Assembly: GCA_028692715.1 (NCBI GenBank)
Contig: JAQUWU010000036.1
Span: forward strand, 13,115-50,473
DNA: 37,359 bases
Direction: 5' to 3'
Origin: Paludibacter sp.
GTDB taxonomy: Bacteria > Bacteroidota > Bacteroidia > Bacteroidales > Paludibacteraceae
The translations under genes were made by a program, and so were the position numbers. Below the pieces are notes generated by a model. It saw only the letters and a list, made by a program, of their open reading frames with translations, did no database searches and was not told the DNA's origin. How positions within the stretch are numbered: the stretch's first letter is position 1; every line of letters starts with the position of its first letter. Positions 10,907-31,393 of this stretch are shown one piece after another.

Positions 10907-11713
10907 ATGCGAAAAAAAATACAGATAATTGTTATTGTTAGTACTTTGGTTGCGTTAATTATCTCAGTAATTTGGGTCAGACATGTACGTAACAGAATTC
11001 ATGATTTGCCAAGCATTATGAATTCAGGTCGTCTGTCTGTTCTTACTGATAGCAGTAGAATGGGTTTTGCAACAACCGGTGATAGCGTTTATGGTTTTCA
11101 GTATGAAATTGTGAAAGCCTTTGCTGATAGTTTAGGACTGGAGTTGGAAATTAAAGAAGAAAGTGATTTAAATGCCTGTTTAGAAGAAATTGAAGATGGT
11201 GATTATGACATAATTGCAAATTTAATTCCGGTAACCACCCAATGGAATCATCATGCAATGTTTACGACACCTCTGTTTACTTCGAGACAGGTACTTGTGC
11301 AGCGAATTAATAATGATTCAGCGCATTCAGTAAATATCACGAATCAATATCAATTGGCAAACGATAGTATTTATATTCAATATCATTCGCCTTTTAAAAT
11401 GCGTTTAAAAAATCTTTCAGATGAAATTGCTGATACCATTCATATTTTTGAAATGAAAGATTTGAGTACAGAACAATTGGTTCGATTGGTGTCGCAGTCA
11501 AAAATAAAATATACCATCTGTGACGAGCAATTTGCTCGTATTCTGAAGCTCCAATATTCCAATATTGATATATCATTACCGATAGGATTTGAACAACAAT
11601 TAGCTTGGGTTGTTCATCCTAAATCTGTATTATTACTCAAGAGCTTGAATGGCTTTCTCGAGGATTTTATCGGGAGCTCAGCTTATTGGGATATATATCG
11701 TAAATATTATTGA
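10907..11713 (+). CDS. periplasmic solute-binding protein, family 3 (membrane-anchored)
   Basis: The 268-residue protein has one N-terminal membrane segment (~5-24), then a bacterial extracellular solute-binding family 3 domain (~40-268): GRLSVLTDSSRMGFATTGDS, GFQYEIVKAFADSLGLELEI, then DYDIIANLIPVT. This is the amino-acid/polar-ligand binding fold, also used as the regulatory domain of MltF. No lytic transglycosylase domain follows, so it is not a full MltF, and no ABC permease or ATPase genes are nearby. The protein is therefore an orphan binding protein of unknown ligand. The stop codon TGA is the first triplet of an octamer repeat array. A MITE-like element lies just upstream. Confidence 0.75.
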   Translation: MRKKIQIIVIVSTLVALIISVIWVRHVRNRIHDLPSIMNSGRLSVLTDSSRMGFATTGDSVYGFQYEIVKAFADSLGLELEIKEESDLNACLEEIEDGDYDIIANLIPVTTQWNHHAMFTTPLFTSRQVLVQRINNDSAHSVNITNQYQLANDSIYIQYHSPFKMRLKNLSDEIADTIHIFEMKDLSTEQLVRLVSQSKIKYTICDEQFARILKLQYSNIDISLPIGFEQQLAWVVHPKSVLLLKSLNGFLEDFIGSSAYWDIYRKYY

Positions 11714-11790
11714 TGTGATGATGTGATAATGTGATGATGTGATGATGTGATAATGTGATGATGTGATAATGTGATGATGTGATAATGTGA
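11711..11790 (+). repeat. tandem octamer array (TGATGTGA/TAATGTGA, 10 copies)
   Basis: Ten exact octamers run head to tail, six TGATGTGA and four TAATGTGA. The first three bases are the stop codon of the solute-binding gene. A related array lies beyond the stop of comM at 31338-31393, in the same orientation relative to its gene. Confidence 0.9.
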
Positions 11791-11840
11791 TGATTAATCA
11801 ACCAATTAACCAATTAGCTAATTAATTAATAAATTAAGCC

Positions 11841-14256: not shown

Positions 14257-16164
14257 ATGAATTTACAGAAAGAAGCTATATCTAGTACAACTTCAAATGA
14301 CAGAAGGCTTATCGAACTTCTTTCACCGGCTAAAGATCTTGAATGTGGAATTGCCGCCATAAATCACGGTGCTGATGCTGTTTATATCGGTGCATCTCAA
14401 TTTAGTGCACGTGCTTCAGCCGGAAATTCGATTGAAGATATCGAAAAGCTGGTTCAATATGCACATCAATATAGAGCAAAAGTATTAGTGGCTCTGAACA
14501 CAATTTTGACCGATGAACAATTACCTGAAGCTGAGAAATTAATTTGGGATATTTATAATGCAGGTGCTGATGCGTTGATTATTCAGGATATGGGTATTCT
14601 GAAAATGAATTTGCCTCCAATAGCAATTCATGCCAGCACTCAAACCGATAATCGATCGGTAGAAAAAGTGAAATTTCTTGAAGATACAGGATTTTCACGA
14701 GTGGTGTTAGCTAGGGAACTAACTTTAAAACAAATTTCAGAAATTTCCGATCAAACGACTATTGCGCTCGAAGCATTTGTACATGGGGCATTGTGTGTAA
14801 GTTACAGCGGGCAATGCTATATGAGTCAGGCTAATAGCGGTCGTTCAGCAAACCGTGGTCAATGTGCACAATATTGCCGTCTACCTTACAGTTTATACGA
14901 TTCAGAGGATAATATTCTGGTGAAAAATAAGCATTTATTATCATTGAAAGATCTTGATCAATCCGATTCGTTGGAAGAAATGATAAAAGCAGGGATTACT
15001 TCGTTTAAGATTGAAGGAAGATTGAAAGATGTAGATTATGTGAAAAATATAACGGCTTACTACCGAAAAAAACTTGATTTAATTTTAGAAAAGAGTTCAG
15101 AATATAAACGTGCCTCTTCAGGAAAAACCACTTTCTTTTTTGAACCAAATCCCGAGAAAAGTTTTCGTCGTGGTGCTACTGATTATTTTTTACACGGAAG
15201 AAAAGCAGATATTATTCAACCCGATACGCCCAAATCGCTGGGTGAACCGATAGGAAAAGTGACCTATATTGGTCGTAACTTTTTTGAGGTTCATAACGGA
15301 CATTTATTAAGCAATGGTGATGGACTTTGTTTTATTAATAAGCAAAATGACTTGACCGGATTTAGGGTCAATCGTGTAGAACACCTCACCCCAATTCTCT
15401 CCAAAGGAGAGGGAGAAATAAAAAAAGTAAGAGTACAGGTTTTTCCTGCCGATATGCCCCGAATGGATATAGGTGTATTTCTATACCGAAATCAGGATCA
15501 GGCATTTGAAAAAGTGATGAAAGGAAAAACATCGGAACGTAGAGTAGGAGTGAGGGTACTTTTTAAAGAAACTGAAACAGGTTTTGCCATTCAACTTACC
15601 GATGAAGATGGTATCTCTTGTATTTTTCCGGTTTCTTGCGAGAAACAACCGGCACAAAAACCAGATGCAGTAATCGAAAATATCAAAAACCAACTCTCAA
15701 AACTGGGAAATACTATTTACGAAGCAACAGACATACAGATTGAAATAAATTCTCCGTGGTTTTTCCCTGCATCACAATTAAGTGAATGGAGAAGATTAGC
15801 CATAGAACTGTTAGATGTTGAACGTAAAAAGTCATACGTTCGTAAAACCAGAAAAGAATCTGTACTAACTGATTTTCCGACAAAAAAAATATCCTATCTT
15901 GGAAATGTAACCAACAAACTCTCAGAAACCTTTTACCTTGAACATGGTGTTGAAGAAGTTATGCCGGGATTTGAAGTAAAAGCAGAAGAAGGAGTTCCAT
16001 TGATGTTTACCAAACATTGTATCAAATATAGCATGGGCTGGTGTCCGAAAGAAGGATATAAAGCAACTTTTAAAGAACCCTTATTTTTGAAAAATAATGA
16101 TCAGGTTTACTTATTGACTTTTGATTGCAAACTTTGCGAAATGAGGATTTCAAAAAAGATATAA
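14257..16164 (+). CDS. U32 family peptidase / RlhA-like RNA-modification protein
   Basis: The protein has 635 residues. Residues ~18-300 form the U32 domain: IELLSPAKDLECGIAAINHGADAVYIG, LEAFVHGALCVSYSGQCYMS, SGRSANRGQCAQYCRLPY. Cysteines 180, 187, 203 and 207 are placed like the iron-sulfur ligands of U32 relatives such as UbiU. A C-terminal ~300-residue extension ends in a GWCPKEGY/FDCKLCEMRI segment. Length and architecture are closest to E. coli RlhA, which hydroxylates 23S rRNA; peptidase activity is historical and doubtful. Residues ~376-387 (HLTPILSKGEGE) are encoded by a GC-rich repeat (see 15382-15416). The gene converges on alaS with a shared hairpin terminator downstream. Confidence 0.85.
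   Translation: MNLQKEAISSTTSNDRRLIELLSPAKDLECGIAAINHGADAVYIGASQFSARASAGNSIEDIEKLVQYAHQYRAKVLVALNTILTDEQLPEAEKLIWDIYNAGADALIIQDMGILKMNLPPIAIHASTQTDNRSVEKVKFLEDTGFSRVVLARELTLKQISEISDQTTIALEAFVHGALCVSYSGQCYMSQANSGRSANRGQCAQYCRLPYSLYDSEDNILVKNKHLLSLKDLDQSDSLEEMIKAGITSFKIEGRLKDVDYVKNITAYYRKKLDLILEKSSEYKRASSGKTTFFFEPNPEKSFRRGATDYFLHGRKADIIQPDTPKSLGEPIGKVTYIGRNFFEVHNGHLLSNGDGLCFINKQNDLTGFRVNRVEHLTPILSKGEGEIKKVRVQVFPADMPRMDIGVFLYRNQDQAFEKVMKGKTSERRVGVRVLFKETETGFAIQLTDEDGISCIFPVSCEKQPAQKPDAVIENIKNQLSKLGNTIYEATDIQIEINSPWFFPASQLSEWRRLAIELLDVERKKSYVRKTRKESVLTDFPTKKISYLGNVTNKLSETFYLEHGVEEVMPGFEVKAEEGVPLMFTKHCIKYSMGWCPKEGYKATFKEPLFLKNNDQVYLLTFDCKLCEMRISKKI
15382..15416 (+). repeat. GC-rich palindromic repeat inside the U32 gene
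   Basis: A CACCTCACCCC stretch is followed by CTCTCCAAAGGAGAG, a perfect stem. It resembles the repeats in alaS (20920-20957) and upstream of and inside murI. It adds about 12 in-frame residues in a linker. Confidence 0.7.
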
Positions 16165-16223: not shown

Positions 16224-16262
16224 AAAATACCTAACGGTTTTTTGAAATCTATTAGGTATTTT
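16224..16262. terminator. bidirectional hairpin terminator
   Basis: Arms AAAATACCTAA (16224-16234) and TTAGGTATTTT (16252-16262) pair perfectly over 11 bp with a 17-nt loop and A/T runs on both sides. It lies 60 bp after the U32 stop and on the far side of the alaS end-copy, where it would have terminated the original, uninterrupted alaS. Confidence 0.65.
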
Positions 16263-16342
16263 CTTTTTCTATAAAGCTTTCTGAATAGCAGAATCAATAA
16301 GCTTAACGTTGATTTTTACCAACTATTTTTGGTGCTCTTTCC

Positions 16343-16430
16343 TTAATTTATAGCTTCCAATGCTTTCTCAATAGTTTTTTGAATGCCTGCTGCATTTTTA
16401 CCACCGGCTGAAGCGAAGAAAAATTGGCTA
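16343..16430 (-). pseudogene. second copy of the alaS 3' end
   Basis: Read on the minus strand this encodes [18 protein letters not shown] and TIEKALEAIN followed by a TAA stop, in frame. The true alaS end (19487-19564) encodes [18 protein letters not shown] and [10 protein letters not shown], then TAA. Over 78 aligned bases (16343-16420 against 19487-19564) I count 7 mismatches (91% identity) and no gaps; only three of the differences change an amino acid. Homology stops at the edge of the poly-Gly segment. The fragment cannot be expressed alone and marks one edge of the islet. Confidence 0.92.
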
Positions 16431-16443
16431 GTAGGTTTAAAAA

Positions 16444-17460
16444 TCAAAGTTTACTCCCATTAATTTCCACGCGTGTAACCCTATGAAGTTCAACTTTTAC
16501 ACACTCAATTTTCTCCTGATCAAATAATACAATGTTTTTACCGCCATTATGTAATGAACTGTTAAATATTATACCGCTTGCATCACTAATATAACGGATA
16601 TATTCACAAATAAATTGAGTAGGAATATATTCAATTTCGGAATCATATCGACGAATTGGTTTTGATAAATCCATGCTGATACTTCTCTTTAATAACATGG
16701 ATTTTGCATACTCAACAATTGCATCTACTTTTGAAAATACACTTGCATCTTCATTGAAATCCACCAATATTATTTCTTTCCCGTCTTTAACTTTAAACGT
16801 TCCAATACTTACGTCATCCAGATAAGTTGCTCTTACCTCGTAAAATACAGTATCAATGTTCTTTGATAAGTATAAATACGGAATGCCTTGTGGATTTGCC
16901 CTTCCTGCTGGGACTGAAATTTTGTTAGGACAACCCATATCTTCAAGTCCAAATTCTTTTTGGTTTTCTCTATAATGTAGTCTCCCTCTAAATAATGGTT
17001 CAAATTTAGACCATACAAAAGTCTTTTTTAAAATTAACTTCCAATTTAAACCTTCAATTATGTTTATATTTGTAAGAAATCGCTTCTCCCATTTTATTTT
17101 ATCTTTTAATTCTTCCCAATATGAAATACATTCAATAATTTCATCAATATAACTTACTTTATCTATAGGTTTTAATGTGAGATTTAAAGTTAAAAGGATA
17201 TCAGACAGTATGTCGTTGCATTCAATTTCTCCAGAGATAAGATTCCAATCGGATTGAATCAGCTCTACAAGAGGCTTACCAGTTGAGTCCAGTTTAAAGA
17301 TGTTGATAAACTCAGCAAAGAAATCGAGAAGTTCCCCGACTTCTAAAAGTTCTGAATCTATTCCATTTGAGCAATAGTCGCAAGTTCCATTTCCCGATGA
17401 ATTAACCTTGATGAATTGCCTCAATTCTAAATCATTAAAGCAATGAACACAAACCTTCAT
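16444..17460 (-). CDS. zinc-ribbon HEPN/RES-domain protein (predicted NAD-degrading toxin-type enzyme)
   Basis: The protein has 338 residues. The N-terminus has a CxxC...CxxC zinc ribbon (Cys4, 7, 27, 30). A mostly helical ~100-residue segment (~35-145) follows and fits the HEPN/RES N-terminal domain found on large RES proteins. Residues ~155-320 are a RES domain: RGRLHYR (158-164), GRANPQGIPYLYLS (186-199), then FYEVR (206-210). The Arg/Tyr and Glu positions are those expected for RES enzymes. RES domains such as MbcT degrade NAD+ and act as toxins; that activity is predicted here, not shown. No Xre/COG5642-type antitoxin accompanies it, so the two upstream genes may restrain or trigger it. 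It starts 2 bp after the stop of the Beta-family gene. Confidence 0.8.
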   Translation of the reverse strand: MKVCVHCFNDLELRQFIKVNSSGNGTCDYCSNGIDSELLEVGELLDFFAEFINIFKLDSTGKPLVELIQSDWNLISGEIECNDILSDILLTLNLTLKPIDKVSYIDEIIECISYWEELKDKIKWEKRFLTNINIIEGLNWKLILKKTFVWSKFEPLFRGRLHYRENQKEFGLEDMGCPNKISVPAGRANPQGIPYLYLSKNIDTVFYEVRATYLDDVSIGTFKVKDGKEIILVDFNEDASVFSKVDAIVEYAKSMLLKRSISMDLSKPIRRYDSEIEYIPTQFICEYIRYISDASGIIFNSSLHNGGKNIVLFDQEKIECVKVELHRVTRVEINGSKL

Positions 17461-17462
17461 AA

Positions 17463-18389
17463 TTATTTGACCGAATTTAGACAGTTATTTAATACCTCCA
17501 GATGATTCTTTATAGAAATCTTTTTAACCATTCCTAAGCCTGGGTAACTTTGGGTATGATAATAATTTCTTAATTCTTCAGAAGCATTAGTATGAATGTT
17601 TTTTGAATCAAGAAATATTACGGCTTTTTTTGAAGCTTCTTCAAATTTTCCTTGAATATTTGACTGGTCATCATTAGTGATAGATGCAAAATGTCTTATC
17701 CAAATTTCATCATTTTCTTTCTCATAAGTCAGATGAATGGCAACTGCATATGGAGCTGCTCCTCCTTCAATGAAATCGCTCACAAGAACGGTATAATCAG
17801 AAAATCCACAATAATTTTCTTCGGCATAAAACAAGTGCTCTTCTGTGAACTTTTCTTCAGGCATTGCTAAATAGTCACTATTCCTTTTTTGAGCCTTGAA
17901 ATTGTCATTCAGAAGAATAAAGTCTTTAGTTCTTAATCTCCTTTTAAGTGTTTTATTTTCTTTTGTAACAATATATTTTATCAATGGTGATTCAATAAAC
18001 TGATTAAAATCGTTACTACTTGTATCTGTGGTATCAGTTAAAATGATCATTACATCGATGTAATTATTTTCCGAAATATATTTTGACACTTCATTGAAGT
18101 TATTTGTTAGGATAAATGTGGGAATCCATCTGGATCTATCAGATAGCTCCAAATCAAGTGCATTTATAATTTCCATTACATTATTTATCTCACCGACTTG
18201 TGGATTAAGAATTAGCGAAAACTTTACATTACCTTCTATTAGTTTTGGCAATGCTAATTTCATGCTATTAAAAGTCTTTTTTACAGGTTCAATTATTGGG
18301 ATAATATTGTTTTTATCTCCCCGCTGCAGGGCATATTCTCTTAATGCGATTAGCTCAAATTGTCTTCCTCGTAAGTATGGATAATACAT
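17463..18389 (-). CDS. Beta family protein (sce7725-like)
   Basis: The protein has 308 residues. It opens with MYYPYLRGRQFELIALRE, the hallmark start of Beta-protein (PF14350) and sce7725-type proteins. An alternating helix/strand pattern suggestive of a TIM-barrel-like fold follows, including IIPIIEPVKKTF, FSLILNPQVGEI and ILTDTTDTS. Related proteins occur in phages and in bacterial accessory regions, and sce7725-type genes are usually paired with sce7726-type genes as here. No biochemical function is known to me. It is translationally coupled on both sides (2-bp gaps), so the three products probably work together. A complementary role as the sensor or regulator of the RES enzyme is speculation. 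Confidence 0.7.
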   Translation of the reverse strand: MYYPYLRGRQFELIALREYALQRGDKNNIIPIIEPVKKTFNSMKLALPKLIEGNVKFSLILNPQVGEINNVMEIINALDLELSDRSRWIPTFILTNNFNEVSKYISENNYIDVMIILTDTTDTSSNDFNQFIESPLIKYIVTKENKTLKRRLRTKDFILLNDNFKAQKRNSDYLAMPEEKFTEEHLFYAEENYCGFSDYTVLVSDFIEGGAAPYAVAIHLTYEKENDEIWIRHFASITNDDQSNIQGKFEEASKKAVIFLDSKNIHTNASEELRNYYHTQSYPGLGMVKKISIKNHLEVLNNCLNSVK

Positions 18390-18391
18390 AA

Positions 18392-19273
18392 TTATAAAAG
18401 GTTTATGTGTTTACTCAATTTATAATCTAATTTCCTAAAAGTTTTTTCATTTAAATTCATAGCAAAAAACAATTGCCTTAATTCTTTCTGAAACATTTCA
18501 ATAATACAGGTGTTTGACTTTCTTTTCTTTAGTTCCTCAATAAAGAGTTGATTTAATAACTTGTTTGGAATGCTTTTCATCATCTCTTTACATATTTCAA
18601 ACATATTGAAACTATTCATTTCAGGCAATTCTCCATAGTAATTTTTAATAATGTTTTTATATTCAGGGGTTCTAATTGAACGAATTAGAGTTTCGACATC
18701 AATAGTTTGATTTTCTTTTGCTCTACGAACTTCTCGCATAGTAACCGATTTAGGGCGTTCAATAAATTCAATAATACCTATCTGATCGTCTTCCAGTAAA
18801 TACTTTTCGGTTAAAGATTCATGAGTAATAACATAGCAATTTTTAAATATTTTGGAATAATCTGCTAATTGAGAAGATAATCTTTTGTTAGAATCAAGTT
18901 CTGTTTTAATCTCGAACGCTTTACTTGTGCCATTAAACATTACAATATCAGCAATAGAATTTCCAACTCTAAATTCATTAATAGCAACCGTATCCTTTAT
19001 TCCATACTTGTTTAACAACAAGCTGTTTATGAAAGTGTTTTTGTAGATATACTCGTTTTTATATTGCTTTTTTAGTTGAAAATAAACATATTGAATGTAA
19101 TCATAGTATGTGGTTATGTTTTTACCAATTTTAGATAAATCGTATCTCTCAATCTTAGCATCAATAAACGAATAATCATCATACTCTAATAGCTTATTAA
19201 ATGATGTACTTGAAAATATAGATGAATAACTTCTATATCTATTCAGTGTCATATTTTCAATTATAGATGACAT
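18392..19273 (-). CDS. PD-(D/E)XK nuclease-like protein (sce7726-like)
   Basis: The protein has 293 residues. The central segment carries a restriction-nuclease-type core: Glu100 (INEFRV), Asp109 (NSIADIVMFNG), Glu121-x-Lys123 (KAFEIKTELDS) and Gln135 (RLSSQLADYSKIF), matching the E...D...ExK...Q order of the PD-(D/E)XK fold. The N-terminal ~80 residues and C-terminal ~130 residues are helical and Lys-rich; the latter includes a TMREVRRAKENQTI segment. This resembles sce7726 family proteins, which pair with sce7725-type neighbours. It is the first gene of the islet operon, with its own predicted promoter (19358-19365). Nuclease activity and target are inferred. Confidence 0.72.
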   Translation of the reverse strand: MSSIIENMTLNRYRSYSSIFSSTSFNKLLEYDDYSFIDAKIERYDLSKIGKNITTYYDYIQYVYFQLKKQYKNEYIYKNTFINSLLLNKYGIKDTVAINEFRVGNSIADIVMFNGTSKAFEIKTELDSNKRLSSQLADYSKIFKNCYVITHESLTEKYLLEDDQIGIIEFIERPKSVTMREVRRAKENQTIDVETLIRSIRTPEYKNIIKNYYGELPEMNSFNMFEICKEMMKSIPNKLLNQLFIEELKKRKSNTCIIEMFQKELRQLFFAMNLNEKTFRKLDYKLSKHINLL

Positions 19274-19320
19274 TATTTAATGTTTGTTGTGACTAATATA
19301 AAGAGAATTTTGTTAAGTTA

Positions 19321-19353
19321 TTCAATAATTGGGGTTTATTTGAATTTATTGAA
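19321..19353 (-). promoter_or_regulatory. inverted repeat at the islet operon start site (possible operator)
   Basis: TTCAATAA (19321-19328) and TTATTGAA (19346-19353) are perfect inverted arms 17 bp apart, lying just downstream of the -7 element and over the expected transcription start. It could be an operator or a weak leader hairpin; there is no T run, so a terminator is unlikely. Confidence 0.35.
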
Positions 19354-19357
19354 TATG

Positions 19358-19365
19358 CAAATCTA
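19358..19365 (-). promoter_or_regulatory. predicted promoter of the islet operon
   Basis: The minus strand reads TAGATTTG, matching TAnnTTTG, about 85 bp upstream of the first islet gene. I see no terminator between the alaS stop and this point, so read-through from alaS is also possible. Confidence 0.5.
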
Positions 19366-19486
19366 CAACTTTTATTTCGAAAATTGGAGAATTGGAGTTT
19401 GTTTTTTAAGTATGAAAAATGAGACTGAATCAAATTGTATTTGGAACCAGCCACATTTTATTAATGTTCAGAAGTTAAATGGGACG

Positions 19487-22111
19487 TTATTTTACTGCTT
19501 CCAATGCTTTTTCAATAGCTTTTTGAATGCCAGCTGCATTTTTACCGCCGGCTGAAGCGAAGAAGGGTTGACCACCGCCTCCTCCCTGAATTTCTTTGGC
19601 CGCATCGCGGGCAATGTTTACAGCGTTCAATCCTTTAGAAACTAAATCGTCGCTTAAAAGAACTGTTAACGATGGTTTGCCTTCTGCAACGCAACCAGCT
19701 ACAAAGAATAATTTTTCCGATTGAATATTGCGAATCTGGAATGCCAGTGTTTTTACCTGATCTGCAGCAAGATTACCCTCGAAACGAATAACTTTAATTC
19801 CATTTACTACATTTGCATCAGCATGAAGTTTATCACGAAGAGCCATTATTTGAACTTGTTGGAAAGTTTCAAGTTTCTTTTTCAATTCTGCATTCTCTTC
19901 GGTTATTTTTTTTAATGCAACTAATATGTCCGGAGTATTATTTAGTAATTCTTTTGCTTCAGCAAGTGTATCCTGTTGTGCATCTAATAATTTTTCAATC
20001 CCGTAAGCGGTAATTGCTTCTAAACGACGAATGCCGGCTGCTATTGACGTTTCTGCTGTAATGCGAACCATTCCGATAGCACCTGTCGATTGCACGTGAG
20101 TACCACCACAAAGTTCGGTAGACGAGCCAAATTGAATTACACGAACCGATTCACCATATTTTTCGCCAAACAAAGCCATTGCACCCATTGCCTGTGCTTC
20201 TGCTATTGGAGTTTCACGCATTTCGTTGAGTTGGTAATTTGCACGAATTTTTTCATTAGCAAGTTTTTCTACGGCGCGAATTTCTTCTTTTGTCATTTTT
20301 TGGTAATGAGAAAAGTCAAAACGCAAACTGTCCGGACTTACAAACGAACCTTTTTGTTCTACATGTGTACCCAATACTTCACGCAATGCTTCGTGTAACA
20401 AATGTGTGGCTGAGTGATTGCATGAAATTGCCTGACGATTTTCTAAATTAATGGTTGCTGTAAAAGTTGCAGTTACATCGGCTGGAAGTCGCTTTGTAAT
20501 ATGGACTCCCAGATTATTTTCTTTTTTTGTGTCAAGAATTTCAATTTTCTCATCTTCTGAAACCAATACTCCGCTGTCACCAACTTGTCCACCCATTTCG
20601 GCATAAAATGGAGTGTTTGAAAGAACTAATTGATAATATTCCTGATCTTTTTGTTTTATTTTGCGGTAACGTAATATCTCAGTATCGTATGATGTGAAAT
20701 CATATCCCACAAAAACACTATCACCTTCGCGAACGGTTACCCAGTCACCTGTCTCAGTAGCGGCAGCATTACGTGCGCGTTCTTTTTGTTTTAGCATTTC
20801 TGAATTAAATTCCTCAATATCAACAGACATATTGTTTTCACGAAGAATCAATTCGGTCAAATCAAGGGGAAAACCAAACGTGTCATAAAGCGTAAATGCA
20901 ATTTTTCCACTCAACACGGTTCCCCTCTCCCCTGGGAGAGGGGTTAGGGGTGAGGTGATTTCTTTATCCAGTAACCTGATCCCTGTTTCCAGTGTGCGAA
21001 GGAATGATTCTTCTTCCTCTTTTATTACCTTTCCAATCAACGATTTTTGTGACACAAGTTCTGGATAAGCTTTTCCCATCACTTCGCACAATACATCGAT
21101 TAATTTAAACATAAATGCATGTCGTTGACCGAGGAAAGTATAACCGTAACGCACCGCACGGCGTAAAATACGACGGATTACATATCCGGCTTTGGCATTG
21201 GATGGCAATTGTCCATCTGTTATAGAAAATGCAATGGTACGAATGTGATCCGCAATCACACGCATGGCAATATCTACTTTTTCATCTTTACCATATTCAA
21301 CATCACATACACGACCTATCTCAGCAATAATTGGTGTGAATACATCGGTATCGTAGTTGGATTGAACACCTTGAATGGCCATACATAGACGTTCAAAGCC
21401 CATACCTGTATCAATTACTTTGGCAGGTAATCCTTCGAGCGAACCATCGGCTTTTCGGTTGTATTGCATGAAAACGTTGTTCCATATTTCTATCACTTGT
21501 GGGTGACTTCCGTTTACCAATGTAAGACCGTCTATTTTTGCTCGGTCTTCATTATCACGAATGTCAATATGAATTTCTGAACAGGGACCACAAGGACCTG
21601 TGTCGCCCATTTCCCAGAAATTGTCTTTTTTATTACCGTTTATAATGCGGCTTTTTGGAAGAAATTGTTCCCATATTTCAGCAGCTTCATTATCGCGTTC
21701 CAAACCTTCGGGCGCATATCCTTCAAAAACAGTAACGTACAAACGTTCTTTGTCCAATTTTAATATTTCGGTCAGGTATTCCCAAGCCCATTCGATGGCT
21801 TCTTTTTTGAAATAATCGCCAAATGACCAATTCCCCAACATCTCGAACATAGTATGGTGGTAAGTGTCGTGACCAACTTCTTCCAAATCGTTATGTTTAC
21901 CGCTTACACGTAAACATTTTTGAGAATCCGCAATCCGTGAATATTTTATAGGGTCATTACCCAGAATAATATTTTTAAATTGGTTCATTCCGGCATTGGT
22001 AAACATCAAAGTCGGATCGTCCTTGATAACCATGGGTGCTGATGGAACAATCTTATGTCCTTTTGATGTAAAAAAATCTAAAAAAGATTGGCGGATTTCT
22101 TGTGAAGTCAT
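19487..22111 (-). CDS. alaS: alanyl-tRNA synthetase
   Basis: The protein has 874 residues, the full family length. The order is: class II aminoacylation domain ([20 protein letters not shown], then [43 protein letters not shown]), tRNA-recognition helices, editing domain ([17 protein letters not shown] and [13 protein letters not shown]), then coiled-coil and C-Ala domain ending [15 protein letters not shown]. It charges tRNA-Ala. Residues ~386-398 ([13 protein letters not shown]) come from a GC-rich palindromic repeat inserted before VLSGKIAF; relatives such as E. coli lack this stretch. The last 25 codons are duplicated at 16343-16420 with an islet between. A copy of the GC-rich repeat family also lies in the leader, and the promoter is divergent from that of the M23 gene. 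Confidence 0.97.
20920..20957 (-). repeat. GC-rich palindromic repeat inside alaS
   Basis: On the plus strand CCCCTCTCCC and GGGAGAGGGG form a tight perfect palindrome around CT, followed by TTAGGGGTGAGGTGA. It is translated in frame on the minus strand as [13 protein letters not shown] in a loop between the aminoacylation and editing domains. Confidence 0.8.
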
Positions 22112-31181: not shown

Positions 31182-31189
31182 CAAAAGTA
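31182..31189 (-). promoter_or_regulatory. predicted promoter upstream of the TPP riboswitch
   Basis: The minus strand reads TACTTTTG, matching TAnnTTTG, about 270 bp upstream of the receptor start, giving a leader that includes the whole riboswitch. Confidence 0.55.
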
Positions 31190-31201
31190 CAATAAATTTT
31201 T

Positions 31202-31233
31202 TAATGTGTTGATATGATGATGTGATGATGTGT
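31202..31233 (+). repeat. degenerate TGATGTGA octamer array
   Basis: Four diverged octamers (TAATGTGT, TGATATGA, TGATGTGA, TGATGTGT) lie in inverted orientation to the array at 31338-31393, so a transcript through both could fold. Confidence 0.6.
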
Positions 31234-31337
31234 TGATTTTCGGAAGCAATAATGATTTATCTTGATGATATATAACAGATTAAATCGTTGTCTAAAATTC
31301 ATATATTAACACATTTATGTAATGTATTACTTAATTA

Positions 31338-31393
31338 TCACATCATCACATCATCACATCATCACATCACCACATCACCACATTACCACATCA
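31338..31393 (-). repeat. octamer array immediately after the comM stop
   Basis: Seven octamers on the minus strand: TGATGTGG, TAATGTGG, TGATGTGG, then four TGATGTGA. The array starts 2 bp after the comM stop codon. It is the same family and gene-relative orientation as the array at 11711-11790. Confidence 0.85.

Follow-up and report, generated by a model that had tools for sequence, protein, structure and literature searches.

Phage 21 and the element e14, both at icd of Escherichia coli, carry their own 3′ end of this housekeeping gene, which is divergent with mostly synonymous differences, and code for an integrase. Integration at the 3′ ends of housekeeping genes has been described together with cis-mobilizable elements (CIMEs), i.e. 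attachment site (att)-flanked remnants of integrative and conjugative elements (ICEs) or integrative and mobilizable elements (IMEs) (PMC5704250); homology-facilitated illegitimate recombination leaves orphan 3′ regions at type VI secretion system (T6SS) and Rhs loci (PMC5361080). The locus analyzed here lies in a stretch of 37,359 nucleotides from Paludibacter sp. (the whole stretch is referred to as the window; assembly GCA_028692715.1, contig JAQUWU010000036.1, positions 13,115 to 50,473), where an islet consisting of a sce7726-sce7725-RES operon is situated between the intact alaS gene and a second copy of the alaS 3′ end. Insertion of the islet behind a restored gene end is supported; it represents a real insertion scar, recurrent at alaS and present at a few other genes, and a variant of the known kinds of gene-end insertion.

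The islet is similar to phage 21 and e14 with regard to the divergent gene end, and unlike these elements, which code for an integrase. With CIMEs, it shares the cargo without an integrase (there are no integration or transfer genes among its three cargo genes), the direct repeats at both ends (one of them completing alaS) and the restored 3′ end of a targeted housekeeping gene; it differs in that neither an integrase nor a related full element was seen at alaS and that repeat boundary and length vary between insertions in the same gene. As at the T6SS and Rhs loci, new DNA appears to be anchored via one-sided homology while the old 3′ part remains downstream; there, however, the anchor is located within the variable locus, whereas here an essential gene without relation to the islet serves as anchor for a complete operon. 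Those orphan 3′ regions constitute a precedent for homologous recombination anchored in a gene end. The homeocassettes beside the alanyl-tRNA ligase of Halorubrum are different, being alternative cassettes between core genes (PMC11078007). In the open literature searched, we found no description of alaS serving as an attachment site.

Two copies of the alaS 3′ end

The alaS gene (19487–22111, minus strand; list of open reading frames) is intact, codes for 874 amino acids and has matches in 39 of the 40 genomes searched, including the source genome of the window (4.85 Mb; G000 among the genus genomes). Its last codons up to the stop (inner copy, 19487–19570, minus strand, by alignment) recur as an outer fragment of approximately 28 codons including the stop (16343–16426, minus strand; alignment and profile search), located 17 bases after the RES stop codon. 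The duplication claimed by an earlier note on this DNA was borne out: 71 of the 78 bases are identical between 16343–16420 and 19487–19564, without gaps (repeat family D3), and the similarity may extend to codon −28 (outer copy ..Q F FFASAGG.., inner copy ..Q P FFASAGG..). The outer copy was matched by the full alaS protein at E = 6e-6 in the genome search and by the alaS tail profile at E = 1.3e-13; it is therefore not due to chance. Besides the gene and this fragment, no further alaS-like sequence of the 4.85 Mb genome was matched by the full-protein query (E ≤ 0.001). The outer copy is thus a fragment of the gene end and not the degraded full-length paralogue that the earlier note had considered as a counter-explanation, and the genome has no second alaS. 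The seven differences between both copies comprise four synonymous and three non-synonymous changes; the characterization of the copies as mostly synonymous is thus formally true but weak by itself (P = 0.07 against an assumed share of 25%).

A hairpin at 16224–16262 (−11.4 kcal/mol, z −3.2 on the plus strand; −11.7 kcal/mol, z −4.6 on the minus strand) had been regarded as the original alaS terminator that stayed with the outer copy. This origin is not established, because the hairpin is also positioned 60 bases behind the gene of the U32 peptidase family on the far side of the islet (14257–16164, plus strand; Pfam PF01136, synteny) and the stretch after the inner alaS end folds comparably (−11.9 kcal/mol); judged from folding, it might terminate transcription in both directions, for the outer end, the U32 gene or both. 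A second decayed alaS tail, considered at about 16270–16330 between outer copy and hairpin, was rejected, as its best frameshift-aware score (28) was below that of unrelated stretches (up to 39).

The same islet in a second Paludibacter genome

The genus set comprised 48 genomes including that of the window, in which 42 alaS ends were read. A close relative of the RES protein was found only in Paludibacter sp. ppb03 (G022; 78% identical) and a distant one in G011 (46%), besides weak matches in G061 and at a second place in G022. Behind the RES gene of G022 lie, in this order, a decayed alaS tail, a hairpin ending in a T-run (−20.2 kcal/mol), c1 and gcpE, and c1-gcpE directly after alaS are the usual surroundings of this gene (at least five other genus members). 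The alaS-tail fragment scored 45 bits with a DNA model (background up to approximately 26 bits, alaS genes apart), and both the spacing from RES to the tail and the codon of the alaS junction are nearly equal in G022 and G000. Between the two genomes, the islet DNA is 81.8% and 83.9% identical, whereas alaS reaches 75.2% and the M23 region 72.5%; the islet has therefore moved horizontally between lineages. The G022 islet itself is in decay: sce7725 was matched in two frames, RES is interrupted by an in-frame stop as well as by a contig break, and the first 26 codons of sce7726 are missing, its remainder being joined to other DNA near ssrA (recognized by eye).

The two G022 contigs concerned (C26 and C21; L229 and L216) share 84 identical bases within RES, and the contigs terminate in sequences resembling inverted repeats, which would fit a split of the gene by an insertion sequence. 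Several other candidates were dismissed. The trio of G011 (44–54% identical) has, by eye, no alaS tail behind RES, and its other flank lies beyond the contig; a weak tail match in G048 (L149) falls within a GH25-like reading frame and was taken as chance, as was a recurrent weak match in seven genomes (L209–L215) that looks antisense to a conserved gene, presumably recJ.

Other cargo between two alaS ends

The earlier note had predicted other cargo behind alaS, and two genomes indeed contain it, each with a different one. In G044, alaS and a decayed alaS end, the stop of which is in register, enclose a single reading frame of 434 amino acids (no match in Pfam or PADLOC); an M20 peptidase gene comes after the decayed end. 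Compared with the alaS of the same genome, this tail attained a frameshift-aware score of 62 (best of 61 unrelated stretches: 39), and it reaches approximately codon −47, as the upstream part scored 35 (none of 151 controls as high); by profile alone the tail is not outstanding (E 0.67; 25.3 bits), it is so by its position. The M20 gene directly follows alaS in G018, as far as the short contig shows, and this arrangement represents an empty site. In an order-wide scan of 393 genomes with the alaS tail profile (E ≤ 0.01), the only genomes with two tail matches were G000, G036 (in the form of two contig-end pieces) and G700. The latter belongs to another family; its alaS is separated by approximately 2.0 kb, with two small genes, from a second alaS end that comprises about 87 codons and the similarity of which continues for approximately 65 shared bases past the stop. 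Three copies of a short intergenic repeat are distributed around the cargo and both alaS ends of G700 (L271; 7575–7650, 9385–9460 and 9790–9840, by eye).

The checks suggested by the earlier note thus gave a divided result: the same islet with its tail was detected in G022, and empty sites are available for two relatives (G018 being that of G044), but no empty alaS-U32 site was found. Among the genus genomes surveyed, alaS and U32 are adjacent only in the genome of the window, and recA is the gene after U32 in 14 of the 20 relatives examined (a small gene intervenes in two of them); an empty counterpart of the alaS-U32 site is therefore lacking in this set.

The trio behind other duplicated gene tails

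A total of 94 trio loci (two sets of 80 and 13 together with the window) was collected, of which 81 contained both operon ends and 74 or 75 were tested (loci with one operon end absent or short flanks were dropped); some loci seem to be one record under two handles (L170 and L350) and were therefore counted twice. Direct repeats across the islet at E < 1e-3 were present in 17 of 74 loci, compared with inverted repeats in one of 74 and matches in three of 150 mismatched flank pairs; in 10 of the 17, both copies are located within about 600 bases of the operon. At the protein level, tail copies of the adjacent gene were detected for alaS in the window, valS (L284), an HTH_17 gene (L297) and a gene that we take to be PPDK-like (L301), with three matches in 200 controls. 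The last 40 valS codons are copied starting at the RES stop, which overlaps the first bases of the tail copy (L284, 8842–8967); the junction is therefore exactly at the operon end. The copies of the HTH_17 and the PPDK-like gene tails comprise 20 codons and 656 bases, respectively. Four more tail matches were left uncounted (L163 and L164 from repeat-rich relatives; L307 and L344 with E 0.008–0.009), and repeats near gene ends in L303 and L288 were kept out of the protein-level cases.

A wider test of 979 reading frames of at least 250 amino acids revealed 13 matches; those restricted to the tail were the window, G700, L284 and L334, whereas L308 proved to be a tandem paralogue without tail copy and the remaining eight look like paralogues. 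In L334 (Pedobacter xixiisoli), a tail copy of 23 codons (83%) is located beside the trio, 1.5 kb behind a gene for 333 amino acids with two small frames between.

Repeat lengths ranged from 64 bases (L297) over approximately 84 (G000), 120 (L284), at least 140 (G044) and about 330 (G700) to 656 bases (L301), and the inner boundary of the outer copy within alaS varies among codon −28, about −47 and about −87. The ratio of synonymous to non-synonymous differences was 48:4 in L301, 10:4 in L284 (a stop-codon change included) and 17:10 in G700; both copies were therefore probably working gene ends, i.e. alleles. The interpretation of the copies as two alleles, put forward by the earlier note for the window, is thus supported in these three loci and weakly so in G000 (4 to 3).

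Mode of insertion

We favor, with a probability of approximately one half, entry of the islet via recombination at the alaS 3′ end without an integrase of its own, with ordinary homologous recombination as the preferred route. Incoming DNA would have consisted of a foreign allele of the alaS end followed by the sce7726-sce7725-RES operon. Pairing of the foreign with the resident alaS end, resolved by a single crossover of a circle or by one-sided homology and an illegitimate join on the other side, would yield a complete alaS of mixed origin with the islet behind it and the second alaS end on the far side. With two alaS ends in place, homology is available on both sides, so that the islet could be transferred to other alaS genes in the same manner or be lost precisely. 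We infer the pathway, the foreign nature of one copy and the onward spread; a sliding comparison for a foreign alaS stretch or allele revealed no close relative among the alaS genes of the genus. The recurrence of duplicated tails, with other cargo at alaS and with the same trio at a few other genes, suggests that such islets are able to spread via exchange at essential gene ends, independent of an integrase encoded by themselves.

The varied repeat lengths and boundaries, together with the absence of a tyrosine-integrase motif in the alaS, valS and PPDK cases, favor homologous recombination anchored in the gene end; variation of both features between insertions is the pattern of homology-facilitated insertion. 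Tyrosine-integrase motifs were not found in the window, in the G022, G044, G700, valS (L284) and PPDK (L301) loci or in 41 other alaS loci of the genus (432,508 bases, some with little downstream DNA) in a motif scan that did not extend to serine recombinases. The islet interior contains the three cargo genes only, none of which matches a serine recombinase in Pfam or NCBIfam.

A number of observations weigh against this reading. With 84 bases and 9% divergence, the repeat is short for homologous recombination to proceed efficiently. The synonymous excess in G000 alone is not significant, the left side of the islet is broken in G022, where we infer the link to alaS, and no tail match was obtained in 67 of the 75 trio loci (no credible one in 71) at the protein level. 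Of the 17 direct repeats, seven either have one or both copies at a large distance from the operon or stem from repeat-rich relatives, and short direct repeats are reported, by other criteria, to be ordinary around 10–18% of small variable segments (PMC2884548). Other points concern integrases directly. In a Paludibacteraceae record (L288, 4329–8813), a tRNA-Lys gene, a tyrosine integrase and the trio are arranged in a row. The 3′ end of a tRNA gene faces the operon within approximately 350 bases in four of 60 trio loci (L282, L291, L321 and L341). Even one of the gene-tail cases, L297, possesses two integrase-like frames at a distance of 2–3 kb. Finally, an identical run, as of an att core, borders the inner edge of the outer copy in G000 (17 bases), L284 (17) and L301 (33).

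These features lead to the strongest competing explanation, namely that the islet belongs to the cis-mobilizable elements, as the att-flanked leftover or passenger of an element that codes for an integrase, uses the alaS 3′ end as attachment site and restores alaS; the integrase would have been lost or would act in trans. A gene end restored between direct repeats with no gene broken is what this explanation entails, such integration has been described, and the tail boundary is nearly equal in G000 and G022. The explanation gains further from L288, in which part of the 3′ end of the integrase is repeated behind the trio (57 bases, 75%), and from integrase-like frames in six of 81 trio loci, L297 included. 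The edge runs are found in three of four cases; the G700 edge is unlike an att core (eight identical bases, then mismatches), and the combined P is approximately 0.05. The lack of tyrosine-integrase motifs mentioned above argues against an att-flanked element, as do the three different boundaries within alaS (the boundary is nearly the same in G000 and G022 but varies between elements), the repeats of 64 to 656 bases, the fact that the trio may point either way with respect to the gene and the failure to confirm any alaS tail among 78 candidate stretches of IMG/VR contigs. The arrangement in L288, the tRNA-facing loci, the integrase-like frames, the edge runs and the general frequency of repeats nevertheless leave integrase-less, att-flanked elements a serious, if less probable, rival to anchored homologous recombination. 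The statement of the earlier note that an element integrates at the gene end and restores it holds for the insertion behind a restored alaS end; an integrase-type element as its agent is putative. Independent of this question, the row of genes in L288 is a candidate self-mobile carrier of the trio.

It is unlikely that the target itself was duplicated on insertion, by a staggered break with repair or by slippage, with subsequent decay of the outer copy and no foreign allele involved. Although only four of the seven differences in G000 are synonymous and the outer copies of G044 and G022 are decayed, as would fit this process, both copies look like working ends in L301, L284 and G700 (synonymous: 48 of 52, 10 of 14 and 17 of 27, respectively), and repeats of 64–656 bases far exceed usual target-site duplications. 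Still less probable is an origin as by-product of a rearrangement of the chromosome, by which an alaS fragment came to lie next to U32 while the islet was gained in a separate event: the alaS-U32 adjacency in this genome only, the usual neighbors of both genes (recA for U32, often c1-gcpE for alaS) and the location of recA-uvrD and c1-gcpE on other G000 contigs beside other genes would be in line with it, but the same islet-tail junction precedes c1-gcpE in G022 and is therefore independent of the rearrangement.

Anchored recombination could be extended to a general “tail-anchored” mobility, in which integrase-free islets use borrowed 3′ ends of essential genes as homology arms and the sce7726 nuclease, acting in a homing-like manner, cuts the tails of islet-free recipients and thereby drives copying-in beside alaS, valS and other genes; we consider this extension very improbable. 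Work on genomic islands mostly looks for integrases and tRNA genes. Small defense-like operons may also move via the borrowed tail of an essential gene, leaving a scar of approximately 60 to 650 bases that is missed by ordinary annotation. If this were general, a search for duplicated gene tails would uncover hidden mobile cargo and its exact insertion boundaries without an integrase.

Cargo genes of the islet

All three cargo genes are located on the minus strand. The first codes for a nuclease-like sce7726-family protein of 293 amino acids (18392–19273; NCBIfam NF033832, E 4e-53), followed by a sce7725-family protein of 308 amino acids (17463–18389; NCBIfam NF033831, E 1.3e-87) and a RES-domain protein of 338 amino acids (16444–17460; Pfam PF08808, E 2e-12). 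The profile scores exceed the curated cut-offs (294.5 bits against 60 for sce7725, 180 bits against 70 for sce7726, and 47.8 against 23.2 bits for RES) and the operon order fits, so that the genes are members of the sce7725/sce7726 families with their RES partner. In PADLOC, sce7726 matched the model “cll” (E 1.6e-21) and sce7725 weakly the model “beta” (E 0.0096), whereas RES had no match; a match of sce7726 to NgoMIV was weak (E 0.11). Asp-109, Glu-121 and Lys-123 are invariant in an alignment of 32 sce7726 proteins and presumably correspond to the PD-(D/E)XK nuclease pattern. Judged solely by family resemblance, the trio probably serves in anti-phage defense or another kind of conflict; no paper on the function of the sce7725/sce7726 families was found in the open literature searched. 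The toxin NatT, apparently of RES type to judge from term counts, is an NAD phosphorylase (PMC11535050).

The genes sce7726 and RES occurred in the same order in 68 of 80 genome_contigs loci, the rest being mostly cut by contig or locus ends. The G+C content of the islet (29.5%) is lower than that of the window (35%) and of alaS (39.5%). Homologs of sce7725 were not found in IMG/VR, and the plasmid and phage collections contained 12 and three records, respectively (30–40% identical); the phage-collection record L354, which is linear, contains no directly repeated sequence on the two sides of sce7725 (E 0.05).

Other repeats in the window

A palindromic CCCCTCTCCC...GGGAGAGGGG repeat is inserted in frame within alaS at a variable linker (20920–20960) and resembles in-frame palindromic elements known in other bacteria; similar inserts occur at the same alaS linker in G044, G049, G021, G042 and G013, and a repeat of the same type is present in the start region of murI (23535). 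Two pairs of direct repeats (98%) are spaced approximately 6.8 kb apart (3917–3998/10749–10830 and 4149–4196/10823–10870). Arrays of an 8-base GTGATGAT-like unit, partly inverted, are located at 11683–11818 and 31182–31393, 19.5 kb from each other.

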